This document shows positions 3,559 through 12,122 of a stretch of DNA of 64,000 nucleotides, piece after piece. The DNA lies in the NCBI RefSeq assembly GCF_008297975.1, contig NZ_VLNY01000002.1, positions 186,001 to 250,000 on the forward strand. The letters are read 5' to 3'. The notes below the pieces were generated by a model. That model made no database searches. It was not told where the DNA came from and saw only the letters and a list, made by a program, of their open reading frames with translations. The position numbers were made by a program, and so were the translations under genes. How positions within the stretch are numbered: position 1 is the stretch's first letter; each line of letters starts with the position of its first letter. The stretch comes from Antrihabitans cavernicola. GTDB taxonomy: Bacteria > Actinomycetota > Actinomycetes > Mycobacteriales > Mycobacteriaceae.

Positions 3559-3604
3559 CTTTCCGTTATGGAAAGCGTAGCGACTGACTTTCCAGTTTGG
3601 CAAG
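3559..3604 (-). promoter_or_regulatory. Tandem palindromic operators upstream of the membrane protein/regulator operon
   Basis: Two copies of the same dyad: CTTTCCGTTATGGAAAG (3559-3575, perfect CTTTCC-N5-GGAAAG) and CTTTCCAGTTTGGCAAG (3588-3604, one mismatch), 29 bases centre to centre. They sit immediately in front of the operon that encodes a winged-helix regulator, so autoregulation is the simplest reading. The binding protein is inferred, not shown. Confidence 0.7.
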
Positions 3605-3669
3605 TGGGTGGGTGTTCGCGCCTAGGGCGGTGCTGGTTAGAGTTCTCGGAGGCGGGCGCGAGCCGGTCG

Positions 3670-3743
3670 GCCCCTATAGCCCAATTGGCAGAGGCAGCGG
3701 ACTTAAAATCCGCACAGTGTCGGTTCGAGTCCGACTGGGGGCA
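3670..3743 (+). tRNA. tRNA with anticodon UAA (leucine-type), host of the integrated element
   Basis: 74-base cloverleaf. Acceptor GCCCCTA (3670-3676) pairs with TGGGGGC (3736-3742), discriminator A at 3743. D stem GCC/GGC (3679-3681/3693-3695). Anticodon stem GCGGA/TCCGC with loop CTTAAAA, giving anticodon TAA at 3704-3706. Variable loop ACAGT, T arm GTCGG-TTCGAGT-CCGAC. CCA is not encoded. UAA reads the leucine codon UUA, rare in such genomes. The short, class I variable loop is odd because leucine tRNAs normally have a long arm. The 3' half is repeated at 7504-7534, marking it as an integration target. Confidence 0.9.
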
Positions 3744-3854
3744 CAGGTAGAGGCATTATTGCTGCTGTCGAGCGCCCGCCACCCCGGTATTACCCCGGCG
3801 CATGGCGGCGCGGCGGTGTCCGGATTGTCAGACCGCGCTGGCAAGATCGGTGCT

Positions 3855-4922
3855 GTGGACGACAAGCGATATCAGGTCTTCGTGAGTTCGACGTACACGG
3901 ACCTCACGGACGAGCGAGCGGCCGTGATACAGGCAATCCTGCGAATGGACCATCTGCCCGCTGGAATGGAGATGTTTCCGTCGGCTGACGAAGGTCAATG
4001 GGCTCTGATAGAGCAGGTTATCGACCAAAGCGACTATTACATTGTCGTTGTGGCTGGCAGATACGGCAGCGTAATTGACGCCGAGGGAATTAGCTTTACA
4101 GAGAAAGAGTACGACTACGCAGTCAAATCTAAGATTCCAGTTCTCGGATTTGTCCATAAGGACCCCGGCAGCATTCCAGCGAATAAGACGGACATGGACC
4201 CCGCAGTGCAGGAGCTACTTCAGAAGTTTCGCGAAAAGGTACAGTCAAAGCCAGTTACCTTCTTCGAATCCCCGGCGGAGCTTGGCGGACTTGTGGTCAC
4301 TAGCTTATTGCAGGCGATCAAAAAGAAGCCGGGAATGGGCTGGATTCGTGGCGATCAAGCCATGACTGTCGAACAGCAGCGCGAAATATTGGCGCTACGT
4401 GAGCAGGTTGCAGCCTTGAGGGAAGAAAAAGTAGCTGCCGAAAGCGCTTTAGTGGAAGATGTATCGAAACTCGCGCAGGGTGACGAAACGGTCACTCTAT
4501 GGGTCGAGGTTGAGAGCCCATCATATAACCAGCCGAGCGTAATCGAGTTCGTGGAGACTACATGGGATGGGGTCTTTCGAGACGTAGCCCCAGAATTGGT
4601 CGACGAAGGTGCAGAAGTCGATGCACGACAACGGCTTGCAAGTCATCTTGTGATTAATGCCCGAGATGAGGCAATGGAAAGGATGAAACGCGTTCCACGT
4701 GGTCAGGCTAAAGTCCACGATGACGACTGGGACCTGGTTAAGACTCAGTTTCGCGCACTGGGCTTGATCGACAATGGCCTAAAAAAGAGGCCGGTTAACG
4801 ACTCCAACAAGTACGTCCGCCTTACAGAGAAGGGTGACAGGCACCTCACTGCTCTGATCGCGGTTCCGCGAGGCATCGATCCAAACTCGATCGTGGTCCC
4901 CTCGGTTCTAGCTGACAACTGA
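3855..4922 (+). CDS. DUF4062 domain protein, island cargo
   Basis: 355 residues. Residues about 5-100 form a DUF4062 domain: YQVFVSSTYTDLTDERAAV (6-24), LPAGMEMFPS (34-43), QSDYYIVVVAGRYGS (58-72) and FTEKEYDYA (81-89). A coiled coil follows at about 171-203 (EQQREILALREQVAALREEK). The C-terminal domain (about 213-340) ends in a winged-helix-like stretch, LVKTQFRALGLIDNG with LTEKGDRHL. DUF4062 often occurs in predicted conflict or signalling proteins; no activity is proved. GTG at 3855 is chosen because longer frames run through the tRNA. Codon use is visibly AT-richer than the neighbours, a sign of transfer. A defence role is inference. Confidence 0.82.
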   Translation: MDDKRYQVFVSSTYTDLTDERAAVIQAILRMDHLPAGMEMFPSADEGQWALIEQVIDQSDYYIVVVAGRYGSVIDAEGISFTEKEYDYAVKSKIPVLGFVHKDPGSIPANKTDMDPAVQELLQKFREKVQSKPVTFFESPAELGGLVVTSLLQAIKKKPGMGWIRGDQAMTVEQQREILALREQVAALREEKVAAESALVEDVSKLAQGDETVTLWVEVESPSYNQPSVIEFVETTWDGVFRDVAPELVDEGAEVDARQRLASHLVINARDEAMERMKRVPRGQAKVHDDDWDLVKTQFRALGLIDNGLKKRPVNDSNKYVRLTEKGDRHLTALIAVPRGIDPNSIVVPSVLADN

Positions 4923-5101
4923 AGCAAACTTTCGCCCGAGCCTCTGCGCGCTCGACGGAGGCCGGAATCGCCGCAACCGGAACTGCACTAGTCGGGGCAG
5001 CAGATTGGTCGCGCTCCAGTCCGCAAGTTGTAACGGAACACGCGCAACCTCCGATCTGAGCAAATGGCGACGCATGCCGAAACAGACAAATAGGGGGAAC
5101 C

Positions 5102-5425
5102 GTGAGCGACTCGGCCAGTGGAATGTTCGTTTTGTTGCTAGTTGTTTTCTTCGTATGTGGACTCGCCGCCGCGCATGTTGCGGGCCAAAAGAACCTAAGC
5201 AGCGGAGGATACTTTCTATTTGCGTTCTTCTTCGGGCCGTTCGGGCTGGCGACTGCATTGCTAGCTGCACCGGCCAAGGCACCGGTTGCAATCCCCGACG
5301 GTATGCGGGCTGTTGTATGCACGCGCTGCAATGCGGATCAAAATATCGGCATCAATGCTCCGAGGTATAGCTGCTGGCGGTGCAAAGAGTCGGTAGCTGT
5401 GGCCCGCACCGCTTCGTCAACCTGA
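5102..5425 (+). CDS. Small two-span membrane protein with C-terminal zinc ribbon
   Basis: 107 residues, GTG start with an AGGGGG ribosome site just upstream. Two hydrophobic spans (MFVLLLVVFFVCGLAAAHVA, about 8-27, and YFLFAFFFGPFGLATALLAA, about 37-56) enclose a short loop. The soluble tail carries two CxxC pairs (CTRC and CWRC, about 73-95), a likely zinc ribbon. It lies between the DUF4062 gene and the integrase inside the element and may be the second cargo gene. No family with known function was recognised; membrane tethering with a metal knuckle is what can be read. Confidence 0.72.
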   Translation: MSDSASGMFVLLLVVFFVCGLAAAHVAGQKNLSSGGYFLFAFFFGPFGLATALLAAPAKAPVAIPDGMRAVVCTRCNADQNIGINAPRYSCWRCKESVAVARTASST

Positions 5426-6870
5426 CCGACGTCCGAACATCTGCACCACGTTCGACGGAACCGATTCAGCGGGAACGAGATTGGCCGGGGCGGGAGGTTC
5501 GGGCAGTACGTTGGCCGCGCCTCCGTCCTCTTCGGGAATCCAATCGCCGTAGGTGTTCAGGGTGAGGGTGAACGTGCTGTGGCCCAACCATTTCGACACC
5601 TGCATGAAGTGGGTGCCCGCCGTTAGTTGCATGACCGCCATCGAGCGGCGTAGATCGTGCAGTCGTACGCCGCGTGTGGCCGGTTGACCGTCGTGCGCGG
5701 GAGCGCTGACCGGCAGGCCCATCGCCGCCAGGGCGGGCTTAAAGATCGTCTCGTAGAAGGTGCCCATCGCTACCGGCTGCGACCAGTCGTGCGGCACCGC
5801 GTACCGCTCACCCGCTGTCCGGTATCCGCCGCCGTTCTTGCGCGACCGCCATAGTGGCGCTGTTGGCTCGCCGGGTCGTGGGTGCTCGTTCTCTATGTAC
5901 GAGTGCATCCGCGCGGCAATCCATGGCGGTAGCGGCACCGAGCGACGGGAGCGCTTGGACTTGGGAGTGCTGGCAACCCACTGTCCCCCCTTGCGGTCCT
6001 TGGTCCGACGGACGTTCACCGCGCATCGAATCGTGGGCTGCCGTTCGCGAGTGCTGGGGGCGTCGTGAACACCAAGTCTTCAATCTGCAAGCCCGCGTTC
6101 TCAGATGCACGCAGACCGCTGTACGCCAAGAAGTCCACCATCAGTCCGTAGACCGGGTACGCCGGTAGCTCCTGGCCGTTGGTCGGCTGCCCTGCGATAG
6201 CCGCGCTCAGCTCGGCCAATTGCGTTGCGGTGAGCGGCGTGTGCTCGAATGCGTCGTGGTCGCCGGTAGCGCGGTTGGTGGCAAAGTCCACTCGGTCGGT
6301 TGGGCTGGACGGAATCGCGCCGTGCCGCACCGAGTACTTGAGCACCCGGCCAAAGGTGCCCCACGCGTGCTTGATCGTCGCGGGGGAGAGGGTGGGCTCC
6401 AGCCGCCCGTCTGCACCCTGCCGCGACTGCTGCCGCACCAACGCGGACAAGAACTCTTCGCATTGCCGGGGCGTGATGCTGGCGACGGCCAGACCGGCGA
6501 AGTGCCGCAGCGCATAGCGGCGTAGCACTCGTTCATAGTCGTCCAGGGTGCGTCGCTTCAATCGGCCCTGAGCCACCTTCACCTCCATGCTGTCGAGCCA
6601 GGCTTGCGCGTAGTAGCCGTACGGCAGGTCGCCCGCCTTGCGCTGATCGGCGAGTGTCGCGGTGCCGGTGGTGTGCCGTGCGGCGTTCAGTTCGTCGCGT
6701 CGAGCTTCCGCGTCTTCGCGGGTGCCGAACGATTCCTGCCGCGCTCGGGTGCGCTTGCGCCCGTCGGGCTTGGCGGGATTGACCGGGATGGGTAGCCCCA
6801 TCGCATCGCGCACGGGTTCGGTCCAGCAGTCCCCGATGACGTGTCTTCGATGGGTGTGCGATATCGCCAT
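5417..6870 (-). pseudogene. int: Tyrosine site-specific integrase, frameshifted
   Basis: Integrase of the phage/ICE tyrosine recombinase type, read in two pieces. The N-terminal piece (6016-6870) holds the arm-binding and SAM-like core domains and ends after the first catalytic arginine motif, YSGLRASENAGLQIEDL. The C-terminal piece (5417-6019) holds the hairpin lysine region, HDLRRS, GHST and the nucleophile region LNTYGDW. Restoring one base near the GGGGG run at 6056-6060 (+ strand) joins the frames through the residues APSTRERQPTIRCAV. A start at 6921 (TTG) is also possible. It is therefore a recent frameshift, a sequencing error, or, less likely, programmed slippage; the pieces overlap as GTGA. 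Confidence 0.8.
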
Positions 6871-6934
6871 GTAGGACACTAGCGCCGAAGGCGTTGCTAC
6901 CAAACGTGTTCCGTACGCCAAGAAATACCTCGGC

Positions 6935-7318
6935 TTACGGTTGCAAAACCACGGCGGGTGTCAGGGTGCACGTACCCGTGGACGAGGTATAGGAGCCGTA
7001 GACGATCCCCACCCCGGGGGCATTCGGCGCCGACCCCACAACCGTGGATCCCGACGGGGCCAGTGGCGTGACTCCGACGAAGTTGGGGTCCAACGCGATC
7101 CACGCATAGGAGACGTTGCTGCTCGTGACCGGGTTGGGTGCGCTGATCGCACCGACCGCGACACTGCCGCCGGAGGCTACAGCGGATGCACCTGGACACA
7201 GGACGGTCGGCGTGGGGATCACCGATCCTGCGGAAGCGATCGCCGGCACCGCAAGACCTGCCGCTGCCGTGAGCGCCACAACGGCGGCGGCCCGGCGTGT
7301 TGTTCTCATGTTCGACAT
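6935..7318 (-). CDS. Small exported protein of unknown function
   Basis: 127 residues with a clear signal peptide: basic TTRRAAA, hydrophobic VVALTAAAGLAVPA, cleavage probably after IASA (about residue 29). The mature part is small, Ser/Val/Gly-rich and has two cysteines (VLCPG and GTCTL) that could form a disulfide. AAGGGAG precedes the ATG at 7318. No family was recognised. It lies inside the tRNA-bounded element next to attR but has host-like base composition, so it may be cargo or a host gene captured between att sites. Confidence 0.7.
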   Translation of the reverse strand: MSNMRTTRRAAAVVALTAAAGLAVPAIASAGSVIPTPTVLCPGASAVASGGSVAVGAISAPNPVTSSNVSYAWIALDPNFVGVTPLAPSGSTVVGSAPNAPGVGIVYGSYTSSTGTCTLTPAVVLQP

Positions 7319-7590
7319 GACTTGCTCCCTTTCTCGATGTGGTGTTGTGCCAACAGGCGCATCTCACAGCGTGGACGGAGCGACGGAGAATCGCATGGGT
7401 AATGGGCTACTCAATCCGTCGAGATCGCCTTACGGCCGGTTTCAATTCCCTTGTCCCAGTTGATAATCACCAACATTTCCCATACGTCGAGAAATGCAAT
7501 CGCAAAATCCGCACACGTTGTCGGTTCGAGTCCGCCTGAAGGAAGCATTCATATGGTTCGGCGCTTGCCCGCGTGGCAATCTTGTCGATC
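7319..7590. other. Intergenic region with right attachment site
   Basis: 272 bases without a gene. It is AT-richer than the flanks (for example around 7465-7505) and contains the degenerate tRNA 3' copy at 7504-7534: aaaatccgcaca, two inserted bases around gt, then tgtcggttcgagtccg. The copy lacks the anticodon loop 5' half and the acceptor 3' strand, so it cannot be a functional tRNA. It is read as attR of the integrated element. Confidence 0.72.
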
Positions 7591-8733
7591 ATGAACGGTA
7601 GATGGCTGAGCAGGTTGCGGTGGCGTTCGCGCGCCGGGCATTTGGTGACCTGGATGGCAGTGAGCTTCGGAATGACCGTCGTCATCACCAGGCTCTTCCT
7701 GATGTCGTCGGGGTATCCGAAAATCGGGGGTGCCACGTACCACATTGCGCATGCCTTGTTCGGCGGCTTGCTACTGGTCATCGCGATGCTGGTGACGCTC
7801 CTCTACGCGAGTGGCACATCGATGATCGCGGCAGCGATTCTCTCCGGAGTGGGTCTGGGGTTGTTCATCGACGAAGTCGGCAAATTCATCACCTCGGACA
7901 ACAACTACTTCTTCCCCCTCGCAGCGCCGATCATCTACCTGGCGTTCCTGTTGATCGTCGCCTTGGCGCGCTATGCCGCTCGCGCACACCGGATTTCGCC
8001 TGTCGTGCACCTGAGCCAGGTGATGGAGGAAACCGCGCAGATGGTCGGCACCCGCCCGGGCACAGACCGACGTGCCGCCCTGGCCGCCGAGTTGGACGGC
8101 ATACATCGCGGCGACCTTCCGCCCGAGCACGTCGACGTGCTCGACGCGCTGTCGCGTTACCTCCATGCGGCGCCCGATCGCGGTCACGCGTCGGTGTCGG
8201 GTCGAGTGATCCCGGTGATCGAACGAGTCGAGGAGGTGCTCGCGCCGCAGCGACTGTTGGCTCCGGTGTTGATCGCGGTCATGTTCGCGCACGCCGTGTG
8301 GTCGCTGGTTCGGCTGGTGGCGAGTGCCGAGGTGATCACGGGCTGGCACCCGGCGTGGCATCCGCTCGGAAGACTGTTGGACTCAGGCGAGTTGAACCAC
8401 CACGGGTGGAAAGCGCAGTTGGCGTTGGCGCTCGCTGCGATAGGCGAGGTTCTGGTAGGCGCGGGTTACCTCGCCGCCGCGGTGCAATGGTTGCGCGGTC
8501 ATGTTGCCGCAAGCGTCCGTCTCGGAATCTGGGCCAGCGTGCTGTCGCTCACCGTCGTCAACGTGATGGCAACCTATTTCGATCAGTTCCTCACGGTGTT
8601 CACAGCGATCGGTGAGGCCGTGATCTTGGGCGCCCTCGTTCGTTACCGCACCCGCTTCATCCCCCGTGAGCAATGGCACTGGCATCACCGAGGGCTGGCG
8701 TCGCAATCCGTTCCGGAGCCCGCGGGTCGATAG
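7591..8733 (+). CDS. Multi-pass membrane protein
   Basis: 380-residue integral membrane protein with about four spans in the N-terminal half (WMAVSFGMTVVITRLFLMSS, IAHALFGGLLLVIAMLVTLL, AAAILSGVGLGLFIDEVGKF, PLAAPIIYLAFLLIVALARY). A soluble middle part (about 135-225) is followed by further C-terminal spans. No catalytic motif or named family was recognised. ATG at 7591 is preferred over GTG at 7573; neither has a strong ribosome site. It is the first host gene beyond attR. Confidence 0.78.
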   Translation: MNGRWLSRLRWRSRAGHLVTWMAVSFGMTVVITRLFLMSSGYPKIGGATYHIAHALFGGLLLVIAMLVTLLYASGTSMIAAAILSGVGLGLFIDEVGKFITSDNNYFFPLAAPIIYLAFLLIVALARYAARAHRISPVVHLSQVMEETAQMVGTRPGTDRRAALAAELDGIHRGDLPPEHVDVLDALSRYLHAAPDRGHASVSGRVIPVIERVEEVLAPQRLLAPVLIAVMFAHAVWSLVRLVASAEVITGWHPAWHPLGRLLDSGELNHHGWKAQLALALAAIGEVLVGAGYLAAAVQWLRGHVAASVRLGIWASVLSLTVVNVMATYFDQFLTVFTAIGEAVILGALVRYRTRFIPREQWHWHHRGLASQSVPEPAGR

Positions 8734-8760
8734 TTCACCGAGTGGCATATCCACGGAGAC

Positions 8761-9060
8761 ATGCGCTTCGGAGAGGCGCTCGGCCTGGTCGCCGCCATGA
8801 TCCACGGTGGCGCGGAGCTGGTCACCGCAAGTCGGTGGACGTTGCCGACGGATGCTGCCTACGCCGCCGTCGGTAGCAGCGGTCGGCCGCTGCAGGACGC
8901 GGTAAGTGCCATCGACGACGCCCACGAATCGGCCGATCCGGTGGCAACGATCAACGCCTGGCAGCGTCGTCGTTTGGACGCCTGGCGGGCGAGTGGAGCG
9001 ATCGAGCACTCACCGGTGCTGTGGTCGTCGTTTGCGACGGTGGATACGGCGTCGCAGTAG
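8761..9060 (+). CDS. Hypothetical protein, 99 aa
   Basis: Small soluble protein, GGAGA four bases before the ATG, and strong third-position G/C preference, so it is likely real. No signal peptide, span or recognised domain. It follows the membrane protein after 27 bases on the same strand and may be co-transcribed. Nothing more specific can be said. Confidence 0.6.
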   Translation: MRFGEALGLVAAMIHGGAELVTASRWTLPTDAAYAAVGSSGRPLQDAVSAIDDAHESADPVATINAWQRRRLDAWRASGAIEHSPVLWSSFATVDTASQ

Positions 9061-9102
9061 CCGACTACTCGGTGCTTCGACGACATCCACCGACTCGACT
9101 GC

Positions 9103-9966
9103 TCAGTTGAATCGTCCGTGACTTCGCCACCAGTCGAGCAGCGATTGGTTTCCGTCGGCGTCGGAGGCGAAACTGACGCCGAGGGTATGTCGTTGTGCGG
9201 AAGTCCATTCGAGACTCGGAACAATCTGCTTGCCGGTGGACTGAAAGCATTCGTATCGCCCGGCGGGCTGCGCCGATTCGGGCATGGGGTAGCTGTTGTC
9301 GGACGCACCGTCCGCGCATGCGACATGATCGAGATTGTTGCGGTCGTCGTCGTAACTCTGCTGAGCGGTCTGCGCATCGGCGTAGAGATAGAAATGCGAC
9401 TCCGAGATGTCCGCTCCGGGGTACGCGCCGCAGATCAAGGCCGCGAGTTCGCCATTGTTCGGTTCTTGATGGGAACAATTGTTCTGGCTGTACCCGGTCG
9501 GCAACACCGCGACCAGTTGACGGTCGGCAACGGTGTAGTCGGGCCGTTCGACCACCGACGTCGCCACGATCGGGGTAGTCGGCGACGGTGTTGTCGACCG
9601 ACTCGACACCGTCGGCGTAGCCGAATGATGGCTGGTAAGCGCCACGACTGCGGCCGCGACGGCGAGAAAGGACGCTGCGACGGCGGCCCAAACGCCTCTC
9701 CTGACGCGCGTTTTCGACCCGGCCGGTGCGCTCGGTGGCTGGAGTTGCGGAAGCGCGGGCAGTTCGTGCGGGACCTGTAGATCGCCGACGAGCCGGATCA
9801 GCTCGCCACGGGTCGCCGCGTTCTTCGCAGCGGTGAGGCGTTGCTGGTACTCGTCGTAGGCGAGCTCACCGTCTGCGTAGGCACTGTCGAGCGCGGTGGC
9901 AGCCATCGAGCGGTCGAGATCATTGGCGCGCACGGACGCTCGGTCCGAGGCATCCGGCCCAGTCAT
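9103..9966 (-). CDS. DUF1707 membrane protein with extracellular domain
   Basis: 287 residues. The N-terminus is a DUF1707 domain (SxxDLDRSMAATALDSAYADGEL...YQQRLTAAKNAATRGELIRLVGDL, about 10-68), common in actinobacterial membrane proteins. One span follows (GVWAAVAASFLAVAAAVVAL, about 92-111), then a Ser/Thr-rich linker and an extracellular domain with four cysteines (CSH, CGA, CAD, CFQ), probably two disulfides. The topology suggests a cell-surface sensor or carrier; function unknown. ATG at 9966 is preferred to GTG at 9972. Confidence 0.8.
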   Translation of the reverse strand: MTGPDASDRASVRANDLDRSMAATALDSAYADGELAYDEYQQRLTAAKNAATRGELIRLVGDLQVPHELPALPQLQPPSAPAGSKTRVRRGVWAAVAASFLAVAAAVVALTSHHSATPTVSSRSTTPSPTTPIVATSVVERPDYTVADRQLVAVLPTGYSQNNCSHQEPNNGELAALICGAYPGADISESHFYLYADAQTAQQSYDDDRNNLDHVACADGASDNSYPMPESAQPAGRYECFQSTGKQIVPSLEWTSAQRHTLGVSFASDADGNQSLLDWWRSHGRFN

Positions 9967-10025
9967 CCGCACATGATTGCATGTGCGGCACCCACCCGCG
10001 ACCCATCGCGCTCAGGTCCGAGCGG

Positions 10026-10934
10026 TCAGAGCACATCCTGTGTTGCAACAGCTCGCAACGCTCCCACCATCGCTTTCAGCGGCGGCCAATTCGAGCGACC
10101 CTTGCGCGTGAGCGCGTACACCGTCATCAGCACATCGTGCGAACTCGCGAACTCGGAGATCCGTATGGCATCTGACGTGGATCGGTGCAACGGCAGCAGC
10201 CCAACTCCGTAGCCCTTACCGATCATGTGCTCGACGAGATCGAGGCTGTCGATTCGATGAACCACGTTGGGGGAGAAGCCTTCCAGGGCGCAGAGTCCGC
10301 GGATCACCTCTTCGTCAGCCGTATTTCGCGAGTTGACGATCCACCGATGCTCGGCGTAATCGAGCAGTCGTACAGGTCCGGTCGGATCGGAACTCGGCAC
10401 GCCGAGGCCCCACGGAATGGTCCACAGCCGCATCGATTCGAGAAGTGCGCTCGGGGGGAGTGGTGCGGTGTTGTAGTCGTAGGTGAGTGCCAGATCCAGG
10501 TCGTCGCTTTCGAGCAATTCGAACGCCTCGAGCGGCTCGTATTCGCTCAACTCCACTCGGATCAATTCGTGGGTGGTCGACAATCGCTCGACAGCGGGCA
10601 GCAGCGACGCCCTGATCGCGGTTTCGAACCCGCCCACGCGCAAGGTTCCCGAGGGCACGGAGTCGGGATCGAGGTCGCGTCGTGCCGCGTCGACGGCGGC
10701 AAGAATCGTGACAGCATGGTCGGCGAGACGCAGGCCCGCGGGTGTGAGGCGGACTCTGCGTCCATCCGGTTCGATCAACCGAGCGCCGACTTCCTCGGCC
10801 AGGCTCGCCAACTGCTGCGACACCCCTGACGTCGTTGTTCCGTGCACATCCGCTACCGCCCGCATGGTGCCGAGACGGGACAGCTCCAGCAGGAGATGCA
10901 GTCGTCGCAGGTCCAACGAACTATCGTTCAGCAT
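10026..10934 (-). CDS. LysR-family transcriptional regulator
   Basis: 302 residues. The N-terminal LysR helix-turn-helix is LDLRRLHLLLELSRLGTMRAVADVHGTTTSGVSQQLASLAEEVG (residues about 6-49), followed by the linker helix and a substrate-binding-type effector domain (about 88-295). The gene is transcribed away from an EamA-family transporter, the usual arrangement for a LysR protein and its target. The dyad at 10933-10945 overlaps its start codon, so autorepression is likely. ATG at 10934 is chosen over an upstream MYCLT start. Effector unknown; amino acids or purine analogues are typical for EamA partners. Confidence 0.88.
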   Translation of the reverse strand: MLNDSSLDLRRLHLLLELSRLGTMRAVADVHGTTTSGVSQQLASLAEEVGARLIEPDGRRVRLTPAGLRLADHAVTILAAVDAARRDLDPDSVPSGTLRVGGFETAIRASLLPAVERLSTTHELIRVELSEYEPLEAFELLESDDLDLALTYDYNTAPLPPSALLESMRLWTIPWGLGVPSSDPTGPVRLLDYAEHRWIVNSRNTADEEVIRGLCALEGFSPNVVHRIDSLDLVEHMIGKGYGVGLLPLHRSTSDAIRISEFASSHDVLMTVYALTRKGRSNWPPLKAMVGALRAVATQDVL

Positions 10935-10945
10935 TGTTAAACAAT
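10933..10945. promoter_or_regulatory. LysR-type operator between divergent genes
   Basis: Perfect dyad ATTGTT-A-AACAAT in the short region between the LysR gene and the EamA transporter. It fits the T-N11-A pattern of LysR boxes and overlaps the regulator's start codon. Binding by the adjacent regulator is inferred. Confidence 0.65.
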
Positions 10946-10999
10946 ACATTCATATATATCGCGTGGACATGAACGGTGCCGTCCGGATTGAATTGGCCC

Positions 11000-11932
11000 A
11001 TGACCACCGTTCGAACTCGCGAGGGCGTTGCGGCGGCAGTAGTGGCGATGCTGTGCGTCCAGATCGGCCTTGCGGTCTCGGTCGGCCTGATCGACCGCAT
11101 CGGTGCGGACGGCGCCGCGTGGCTTCGGCTCAGTTGGGCAGGCGTGCTGATGTTGGTGATCGTCAGGCCGCGACCGTCTGAATTCAGTCGTCGGGCATTG
11201 CTCGACGCCTCGCTGCTGGGACTGGTCACTGCCGGCGTCACCGTCTTGTTCATGTACGCCGTTGCGCGAATTCCATTGGGCACGGCAAGCGCACTCGAGT
11301 TCCTCGGCCCGCTCAGCGTTGCCGCGCTGCATGGCCGTGGTCGCGGCCGAGTCCTCTGGCCGTTGTGTGCGGCGGTCGGCGTCGTGTGGTTGACCCGGCC
11401 GTGGGAGGGCTCGGTGGATGCGGTCGGCATTGCGTTCGCACTCGGTGCTGCGTGCTGTTGGGCCCTCTACATCGTCTTGACCCAGCGAGTGGGCGATGCC
11501 GTGACGGGATTGAACGGTCTCGCCGTCTCCCTTCCGGTCGCGGCGATCGCCACCACCGTGTTCGTCGGTCCGTCCGTCATTCCCGAGATGACGCCGGGAC
11601 TGCTGATCGCTGGGATCGGCCTTGCGTTGTTGCTTCCTGTCGTACCGTTCGCGTTGGAAATGCAAGCACTACGCAGACTCGACGCTGCCGCGTTCGGAAC
11701 ACTCATGAGTCTGGAGCCCGCCTTCGCATCGATCATCGGGCTGGTGATGCTCGGTCAACGTCCGCACTGGCTGTCGGTGCTCGGCATTGCCTGCGTCATC
11801 GCAGCGGGAGTCGGTGCTACTCGATCGAGTGGCAGTGGCAGCGTAAGTTCGGATGTGGAGGTGCACAATGAGTTCGAGCGACCGGGAACTCGAATCTGCG
11901 ATCCGCAACCTACTCGCGAGCCGTGCAGCTGA
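11000..11932 (+). CDS. EamA/RhtA-family efflux transporter
   Basis: 310-residue membrane protein of the drug/metabolite transporter superfamily with about ten spans arranged as two EamA repeats (about 8-130 and 140-275). Motifs such as [20 protein letters not shown] and the second-repeat [24 protein letters not shown] are characteristic of RhtA-like amino-acid/homoserine exporters. It is divergent from the LysR regulator. The hydrophilic tail after residue about 280 overlaps the next gene by 65 bases. ATG at 11000 is chosen; GTG at 10976 is possible. Substrate unknown. Confidence 0.86.
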
Positions 11933-12122
11933 TTCGTCGATCTGCCCGTCCGATGTCGCGCGTGCCATTGCGCCGAAAGACTGGCGACCCCTGATGGAGC
12001 CGGTGCGCGCCGCCGCCAGACGCCTGATGTCAGCAGGCGAAGTACGCATCACCCAAGGCGGAAAGACGGTTGGCGATCCGTCGACGGTGAAAGGGCCGAT
12101 TCGAATCGTCCGTAGCGACTGA
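11868..12122 (+). CDS. DUF3253 family protein
   Basis: 84-residue soluble protein. The pattern [29 protein letters not shown], then [23 protein letters not shown] and KGPIRIV, is that of DUF3253, a small winged-helix-like family. GGAG lies seven bases before ATG 11868. It starts inside the 3' end of the transporter gene in another frame, a 65-base overlap, so coupled expression is likely. Function unknown. Confidence 0.82.

Follow-up and report, generated by a model that had tools for sequence, protein, structure and literature searches.

A probable phage-satellite remnant with a Swarozyc-type gene at a tRNA-Leu(taa) gene of Antrihabitans cavernicola, and an exchangeable slot in related elements

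The DUF4062 protein KpSwz ("Swarozyc") is presented in a 2026 preprint as a portal-activated, TIR-like NADase, and the same preprint allows that other DUF4062 mechanisms may exist and reports no NAD hydrolysis by three of four purified human DUF4062 proteins (PMC13174449). Among phage satellites, P4-like elements are described as having a hotspot at the cos site, flanked by psu and int, in which the defence system varies from element to element (PMC9122126), and the passages on candidate phage-inducible chromosomal islands (PICIs) of Mycobacterium, including phiRv1/phiRv2, report an integrase and a major capsid gene, tyrosine-integrase forms at tRNA genes, helicases in some, and ESX-type toxin (PEST) systems as cargo in 22% (PMC10654092). 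Here we describe an element at positions 3745-7538 of a 64,000-nucleotide stretch of Antrihabitans cavernicola DNA (the window; the genome, G000, comprises 5.66 Mb in 41 contigs), in which a DUF4062 gene lies behind a tRNA-Leu(taa) gene.

In our view this element was probably inserted long ago and is what remains of a PICI-like, capsid-encoding phage satellite, with its Swarozyc-type gene kept. We observed the repeat, the gene order, the homology and the conserved catalytic glutamate in the window, and slot exchange and head-protein genes in its relatives. The effector and the satellite are of known kinds; a defence slot between tRNA and integrase in such elements is apparently new, since it did not appear in our literature searches, which, apart from the papers cited here, worked at the title and abstract level with partial preprint coverage. 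A preliminary description of this DNA had put the locus forward as an undescribed system, but DUF4062 proteins of the same shape are described as Swarozyc in the preprint, which dates from May 2026 (PMC13174449).

An insertion at tRNA-Leu(taa) with a Swarozyc-type gene

The tRNA-Leu(taa) gene, which has ppx upstream, is the sole tRNA that ARAGORN found in the window, and its 3' half (3705-3737) recurs at 7504-7538, with 88.6% identity over 35 alignment columns and a 2-base insertion. This second copy stood at E=2.8e-7 against the other 60 kb (next matches, E=0.92), and its local alignment score was 51, compared to a null mean of 20.3 and maximum of 30 (300 first-order Markov simulations, 6-kb downstream region). 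The distance from tRNA end to repeat end is 3.8 kb, and the DUF4062 gene starts 111 bp behind the tRNA. In 400-base windows, G+C is 0.51-0.56 over the DUF4062 gene, 0.62-0.70 left of the tRNA and 0.60-0.68 right of ~7.6 kb, and it dips to 0.56-0.58 at 7201-7800. Neither a DUF4062 relative (E<=0.001) nor an integrase relative (E<=1e-30) was found in the three congeners examined. Thus, the degenerate tRNA copy near 7504, the AT-richer DUF4062 gene and the tRNA-targeted mobile element with att-like repeats, all proposed in the preliminary description, held up. It is scarcely credible that the repeat arose by chance and that the genes form an ordinary chromosomal block. In favour of this explanation are the imperfect second copy and a right flank that is non-syntenic in relatives; against it, the score lies well above the null maximum, 22 other loci show the same order at the 3' end of a tRNA (11 of them with clear repeats), and the genes are absent from the three congeners.

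We note two features of such target sites. The tRNAs with Leu anticodons (taa, caa) at 3670-3744 and at L089:12522-12596 have 75 bases only and no long variable arm, which is normally expected of tRNA-Leu; tRNAs with Leu anticodons are favoured satellite targets. In congeners G002 (L079, L080) and G001 (L077, L078), second 3' copies of the tRNA-Leu(taa) type lie ~41 kb and ~45 kb away, with 98-100% identity over 48-51 bp, which suggests large insertions at sites of this type.

The DUF4062 protein resembles KpSwz in domain content and layout. DUF4062 (PF13271) was its sole Pfam match (4.9e-28), phrog_15411 matched near full-length in PHROGs (2.5e-88), and KpSwz (10wc, 11cq, 11cv) was the sole convincing relative in the PDB (E=2.6e-54, residues 3-262; next best, E=0.015). 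With limits read off the alignments, a TIR-like domain (~4-162) containing Glu85 is followed by a helical stretch (~163-206) and a C-terminal AUX-like region (~207-340). Glu85 aligns with the alanine of the KpSwz E97A chain, in which E97 is the catalytic glutamate (the numbering offset was worked out from the alignment), and this position was glutamate in 17 of 17 aligned homologues. Both proteins have a single-gene layout (355 amino acids, compared to a 326-amino-acid KpSwz chain), a TIR-like domain with the catalytic glutamate, a helical stretch and a C-terminal region. They differ in that the AUX region, in Swarozyc a domain of helix-turn-helix/winged fold, is poorly conserved in the window protein; the sequence match to KpSwz reaches into this region and stops at residue 262, and family members have a conserved block at the C terminus. 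Moreover, Swarozyc is placed in defence islands and its activity and portal trigger are reported in the preprint (PMC13174449), whereas the window gene sits in a satellite-type slot and its protein is likened to KpSwz from sequence alone.

In all 16 comparisons, the TIR part was more conserved than the stalk, AUX-N and AUX-C; identity to the homologue in Gordonia soli NBRC 108243, whose genus belongs to the same family (Mycobacteriaceae in GTDB), is 85%, 73%, 46% and 67%, respectively. Such a pattern would result from a fixed executioner joined to a sensor that diversifies. An open frame of 355 codons suggests that the gene is kept or that its decay is recent, and it is probably functional. 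The defence role raised in the preliminary description gains support from the KpSwz homology and from the defence families that occupy the same slot elsewhere. We think it unlikely that the satellite remnant carries a DUF4062 protein that is not an abortive-infection NADase and instead makes a signal, answers a non-phage cue, or is decaying cargo. The low identity of AUX-N even to the G. soli protein, the broken DUF4062 homologue at the same tRNA type in G215, and the other mechanisms allowed for in the preprint together with its human proteins (PMC13174449) would be in keeping with such a protein, but the catalytic glutamate and the TIR part are the most conserved features, the frame is open, and the slot neighbours elsewhere are defence families.

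Of 401 family genomes, 11 contained a relative of the DUF4062 protein; two of these relatives matched weakly and lay in frames of far greater length. Two loci (L095 in G172; L096 in G221) hold further decayed copies, fragments of 42-46 amino acids that share 78-79% identity with the C-terminal portion of the window protein; the G172 fragment lies ~1.4 kb behind a tRNA-Leu. Related records numbered two among phages (27% identity), 181 among plasmids (164 from Staphylococcus; four cover at least 80% of the query) and 217 among viral contigs, of which the best 80 were retrieved.

The slot between tRNA and integrase in related elements

We surveyed the family with the open G. soli integrase, which matched 38 of 401 genomes at E<=1e-30, and examined 31 loci in 28 of these 38, leaving aside the other 10 genomes and some second copies. 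In 23 of the 31 loci, the order was tRNA, cargo and convergent integrase, with constant tRNA orientation and 0.5-3.0 kb between tRNA and integrase end; the other eight (L130-L132, L135, L139-L142), some of them near contig ends, had no tRNA within 4 kb. The target tRNAs were Leu(taa), Leu(caa), Lys, Met and Arg. A simple custom caller gave 46 slot open reading frames (ORFs) of at least 100 amino acids, some of them integrase pieces or starting inside the tRNA. With integrase pieces excluded, cargo ORFs of this size all lay on the tRNA strand in 22 of 23 loci (L129 has one opposed), and of the 17 loci with a called start beyond the tRNA, 16 had their first cargo ORF beginning at a distance of 59-310 bp; in six loci the called start overlapped the tRNA, a caller artefact.

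The slot is exchangeable. Two loci, L136 (G313) and L137 (G200), are 90.7% identical over 3.0 kb of upstream flank (L136 has ~1.6 kb extra before the tRNA), 95.5% identical over 89 bp covering the tRNA, and 89.8% identical over 2.9 kb from the integrase end onward, whereas the interval that opens 13 bp past the tRNA and closes 10 bp short of the integrase shows no match (E<=1e-10). One carries DUF4365 and PDC-M02B and the other an EcoRI-type methylase and a GmrSD/HNH nuclease. Similarly, the integrases of G329 and G. soli are 93% identical, and their slots show no match to each other.

Slot contents were scanned against Pfam (20 ORFs) and PADLOC (30 ORFs, an overlapping set). A DUF4062 homologue or a defence-family match (E<1e-9) occurred in 11 of the 23 slots (the window, L089, L092, L094, L133, L134, L136, L137, L144, L149 and L152), the families being Swarozyc, TIR, type II restriction-modification, PDC-M02, PDC-M34, PDC-S60 and PD-T7-4. 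In PADLOC, 10 of the 30 slot ORFs, from eight loci, fell below 1e-9, one of them (L141) without a nearby tRNA, compared to none of 10 host genes around the window element, a small control in which the best match was a winged-helix regulator (7.4e-7). The remaining 12 slots gave no confident defence-family match; among these 12 are L143 and L151, where no slot ORF was scanned. Under their PADLOC or Pfam names, CAP12/Pycsar TIR, PDC-M02, PDC-M34, PDC-S60 and EcoRI-type restriction-modification occupy the same slot in related elements, not in the window. This arrangement is like the P4-like hotspot as described (PMC9122126), in its position adjoining the integrase and in the different defence system of each element. 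It differs in its borders, which are psu and int (at the cos site) in P4 but the tRNA and the integrase gene's 3' end here, and in that the elements here carry their own head-protein gene.

Two further groups of slot genes stood out by eye. Those at L141:6656-7654, L148:9088-10083, L152:6346-7290 and L153:5898-6872 have similar N-termini (a DALYALG...RG..LE.WGL.PH-type start), adjoin a TIR or DUF4062-like gene in L152 and L141, gave no PADLOC match in L148, L152 and L153, and are possibly an unnamed partner family. Slot proteins in L145, L146, L147, L149, L150 and L153 have hydrophobic N-terminal stretches and charged, coiled-coil-like tails, and had no confident family match in the scans made.

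A phage or plasmid origin of the integrase was considered and rejected. The searches gave two phage records at ~22% identity and two plasmid matches, one at 25% and one, from a 1.24-Mb replicon of Rhodococcus koreensis, that is 73% identical but spans just 22% of the query. Single-protein patterns confirmed no integrase relative in IMG/VR. In G118 (L130, L131, L132), three integrase copies, 73-74% identical to that of G. soli, lie in stretches where no tRNA was found. L134 (G085) and L135 (G187) have 8,853 bp of element in common at 99.97% identity; the match starts 26 bases inside the tRNA, and ARAGORN found no tRNA in L135. Either the element was transferred recently, or it can use a site where the tRNA is not intact.

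Full-size relatives and the window remnant

Clear second copies of the tRNA 3' end were present in 12 of the 23 loci, including the window and L092 (G042), and a weak one in L138 (E=0.014); among the loci without a clear repeat, some contigs ended or only a short stretch was covered. Measured from tRNA end to repeat end, full-length elements span 13.2 kb (G329), 10.2 kb (G281), 12.2 kb (G136), 12.4 kb (G085), 12.3 kb (G200), 12.8 kb (G147) and 12.9 kb (G042). The shorter ones are 6.2 kb in G171 and, besides the window element, the short remnants of 3.1 kb (G130), 3.1 kb (G082) and 1.9 kb (G215).

In the G136 element, a primase/helicase lies mid-element and a major head protein (phrog_3990, 1.4e-107) close to the far repeat. 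Of 12 genomes searched for relatives of this head protein, all but the window genome had one, and by coordinates a head-protein gene lies inside all seven bounded 10-13-kb elements. The G281 copy has a stop inside it, as does its integrase, and one partial copy lies inside the G171 element; the head protein of G313 is near the element, where a far repeat was not found, that of G140 is on another contig, and that of G215 is elsewhere in the genome. A primase was sought with PHROGs in G136 and G042 and identified in both, and PHROGs identified a serine recombinase in G085 and G042; G329 has none adjoining the integrase.

The G042 element is bounded by an exact 47-bp repeat and has a Swarozyc-type gene in its slot. 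It runs from tRNA-Lys through a membrane-type ORF, the DUF4062 homologue, the integrase, the serine recombinase, the primase, an unassigned ORF of 313 amino acids, the head protein, a helix-turn-helix (HTH) regulator and a relative of the window 5102-5425 protein to the 47-bp repeat. No portal was recognised in the 10 ORFs scanned, a set that leaves out small ORFs and an alternative 301-amino-acid frame over the membrane-type ORF.

In gene content, the full-size relatives fit a PICI-like satellite, with an integrase, tRNA repeats, a major head protein and a primase. They agree with the Mycobacterium candidate PICIs in having an integrase and a major capsid gene, in lying at tRNA genes and, for some of the candidates, in carrying a helicase; the passages of that paper describe no tRNA-integrase defence slot or DUF4062 in those candidates (PMC10654092). 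The window copy differs from these in having no capsid gene, and the likeness drawn here is one of description.

When proteins from seven elements, full or partial, were compared with positions 3600-12000, nothing matched except the integrase (and frames over the tRNA). We call the window copy a remnant rather than a satellite member because no head-protein relative was found and the integrase is the sole satellite gene matched. The L094 locus, at the same tRNA type, is similar, with a broken DUF4062 homologue and an incomplete integrase. The preliminary description was right that the block has no replication genes, but its view of a mostly-cargo element fits less well than decay of a larger satellite. 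We also considered a purpose-built minimal integrative element, consisting of an integrase and defence cargo, never a satellite and moved by its own or another integrase, which we judge improbable. Four short elements of the same order, 1.9-3.8 kb, do occur in four genomes (the window, G130, G082 and G215), but the integrase is split or incomplete in all four, as expected of remnants, and relatives in which the integrase frame is open and the repeats are clear measure 12-13 kb and have head genes.

Several results weigh against a satellite remnant with a Swarozyc-type defence gene. The right repeat is imperfect. The preliminary description had looked to related genomes for an empty site, and none was found: right-flank homologues were sought near this tRNA in the relatives examined and were not there. 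Traces of head, primase and serine recombinase genes were not found in 3600-12000, and descent from a full satellite is therefore argued from the integrase, the slot and the site. The PADLOC-DB of 2023 gave no match for the DUF4062 protein and has no model for it, and poor conservation of the AUX region means that something other than a portal may be the trigger. The scan of 3560-7600 gave no promoter-like and one terminator-like site, neither exceeding shuffles. Furthermore, the tRNA-DUF4062-integrase order did not show up as a general one outside the family: among 107 DUF4062 loci, 6 had a tRNA upstream and 1 a convergent integrase, which is an undercount, since the stop-to-stop ORFs hid the G. 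soli tRNA and the integrase profile came from this family only.

The genes of the window element are listed in Table 1. The tyrosine integrase of the preliminary description is not a single open gene but is split over two frames, whereas its G. soli relative is a single open frame of 466 amino acids; either the gene is broken or the sequence has an error. The other gene content given there, DUF4062, a small membrane gene and an exported protein, stands. The small membrane protein has a hydrophobic N-terminal half (by eye) and a Pfam zinc-ribbon match below the family cut-off. We rejected the proposed pairing of DUF4062 with this gene: no relative of it was found in 29 DUF4062 loci checked, and it is not a conserved partner. 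Its relatives occur in 16 of 201 family genomes; the distance to DUF4062 was checked at L092 only, where the relative (L092:161-514) lies ~9 kb away near the other satellite end. Because this G042 relative sits between the HTH regulator and the far repeat, the window gene, instead of being slot cargo, may descend from the satellite's older gene set. The exported protein has one 36% paralogue in its own genome and one weak match (7.8e-4) in 60 other genomes searched.

Table 1. Features of the element and its target site (window coordinates).
Feature	Position	Strand	Details
tRNA-Leu(taa), target site	3670-3744	+	3' part, 3705-3737, is the left repeat (attL)
DUF4062/Swarozyc-type gene	3855-4922	+	355 amino acids, GTG start; PF13271, 4.9e-28
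Small membrane protein	5102-5425	+	107 amino acids, two CxxC pairs; second gene in slot
Integrase, C-terminal piece	5417-6019	-	phrog_1, 6.2e-15; 69% identical to G. soli integrase residues 266-465
Integrase, N-terminal piece (another frame)	6016-6921	-	phrog_1, 1e-23; 65% identical to G. soli integrase residues 24-269
Exported protein	6935-7318	-	127 amino acids
Second copy of tRNA 3' half, decayed (attR)	7504-7538	+	

Proposed mechanism and significance

We propose that tyrosine recombination placed a satellite at the 3' end of tRNA-Leu(taa), and that replication and head genes it would once have had were since lost, leaving the cargo slot between tRNA and integrase with its Swarozyc-type gene. 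Since those genes are gone and the integrase is split over two frames, the element is probably immobile. If expressed, and by homology to KpSwz, the DUF4062 domain would be a TIR-like NADase held inactive in oligomers; the C-terminal AUX region would bind a phage structural protein (portal for KpSwz), switching the NADase on, and the active enzyme would drain NAD+ and kill the infected cell before phage release, an abortive infection.

A wider scheme, which we put forward tentatively and regard as rather doubtful, is that satellites of this bacterial family keep a dedicated, cleanly exchangeable defence slot that is switched on by read-through and in which Swarozyc watches for phage portal, the window copy being a domesticated relic. 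Cargo genes point the same way as the tRNA, usually with a gap of 59-310 bp, and integration may activate them by read-through from the tRNA promoter. Swarozyc would sense portal, which seemingly is not satellite-encoded even though these elements have their own head protein; the Swarozyc version would thereby ignore satellite activity and detect helper or rival phages.

For the DUF4062 gene, formerly cargo of unknown function, there is now a defence prediction that can be tested and that names the catalytic residue. Its home in a satellite, rather than in the defence islands described for Swarozyc (PMC13174449), raises the question of how a portal sensor coexists with a phage-dependent element. 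The slot itself may serve as a hotspot for finding further systems, with 12 of 23 occupants lacking a confident defence match and others holding restriction-modification, TIR and Swarozyc genes.

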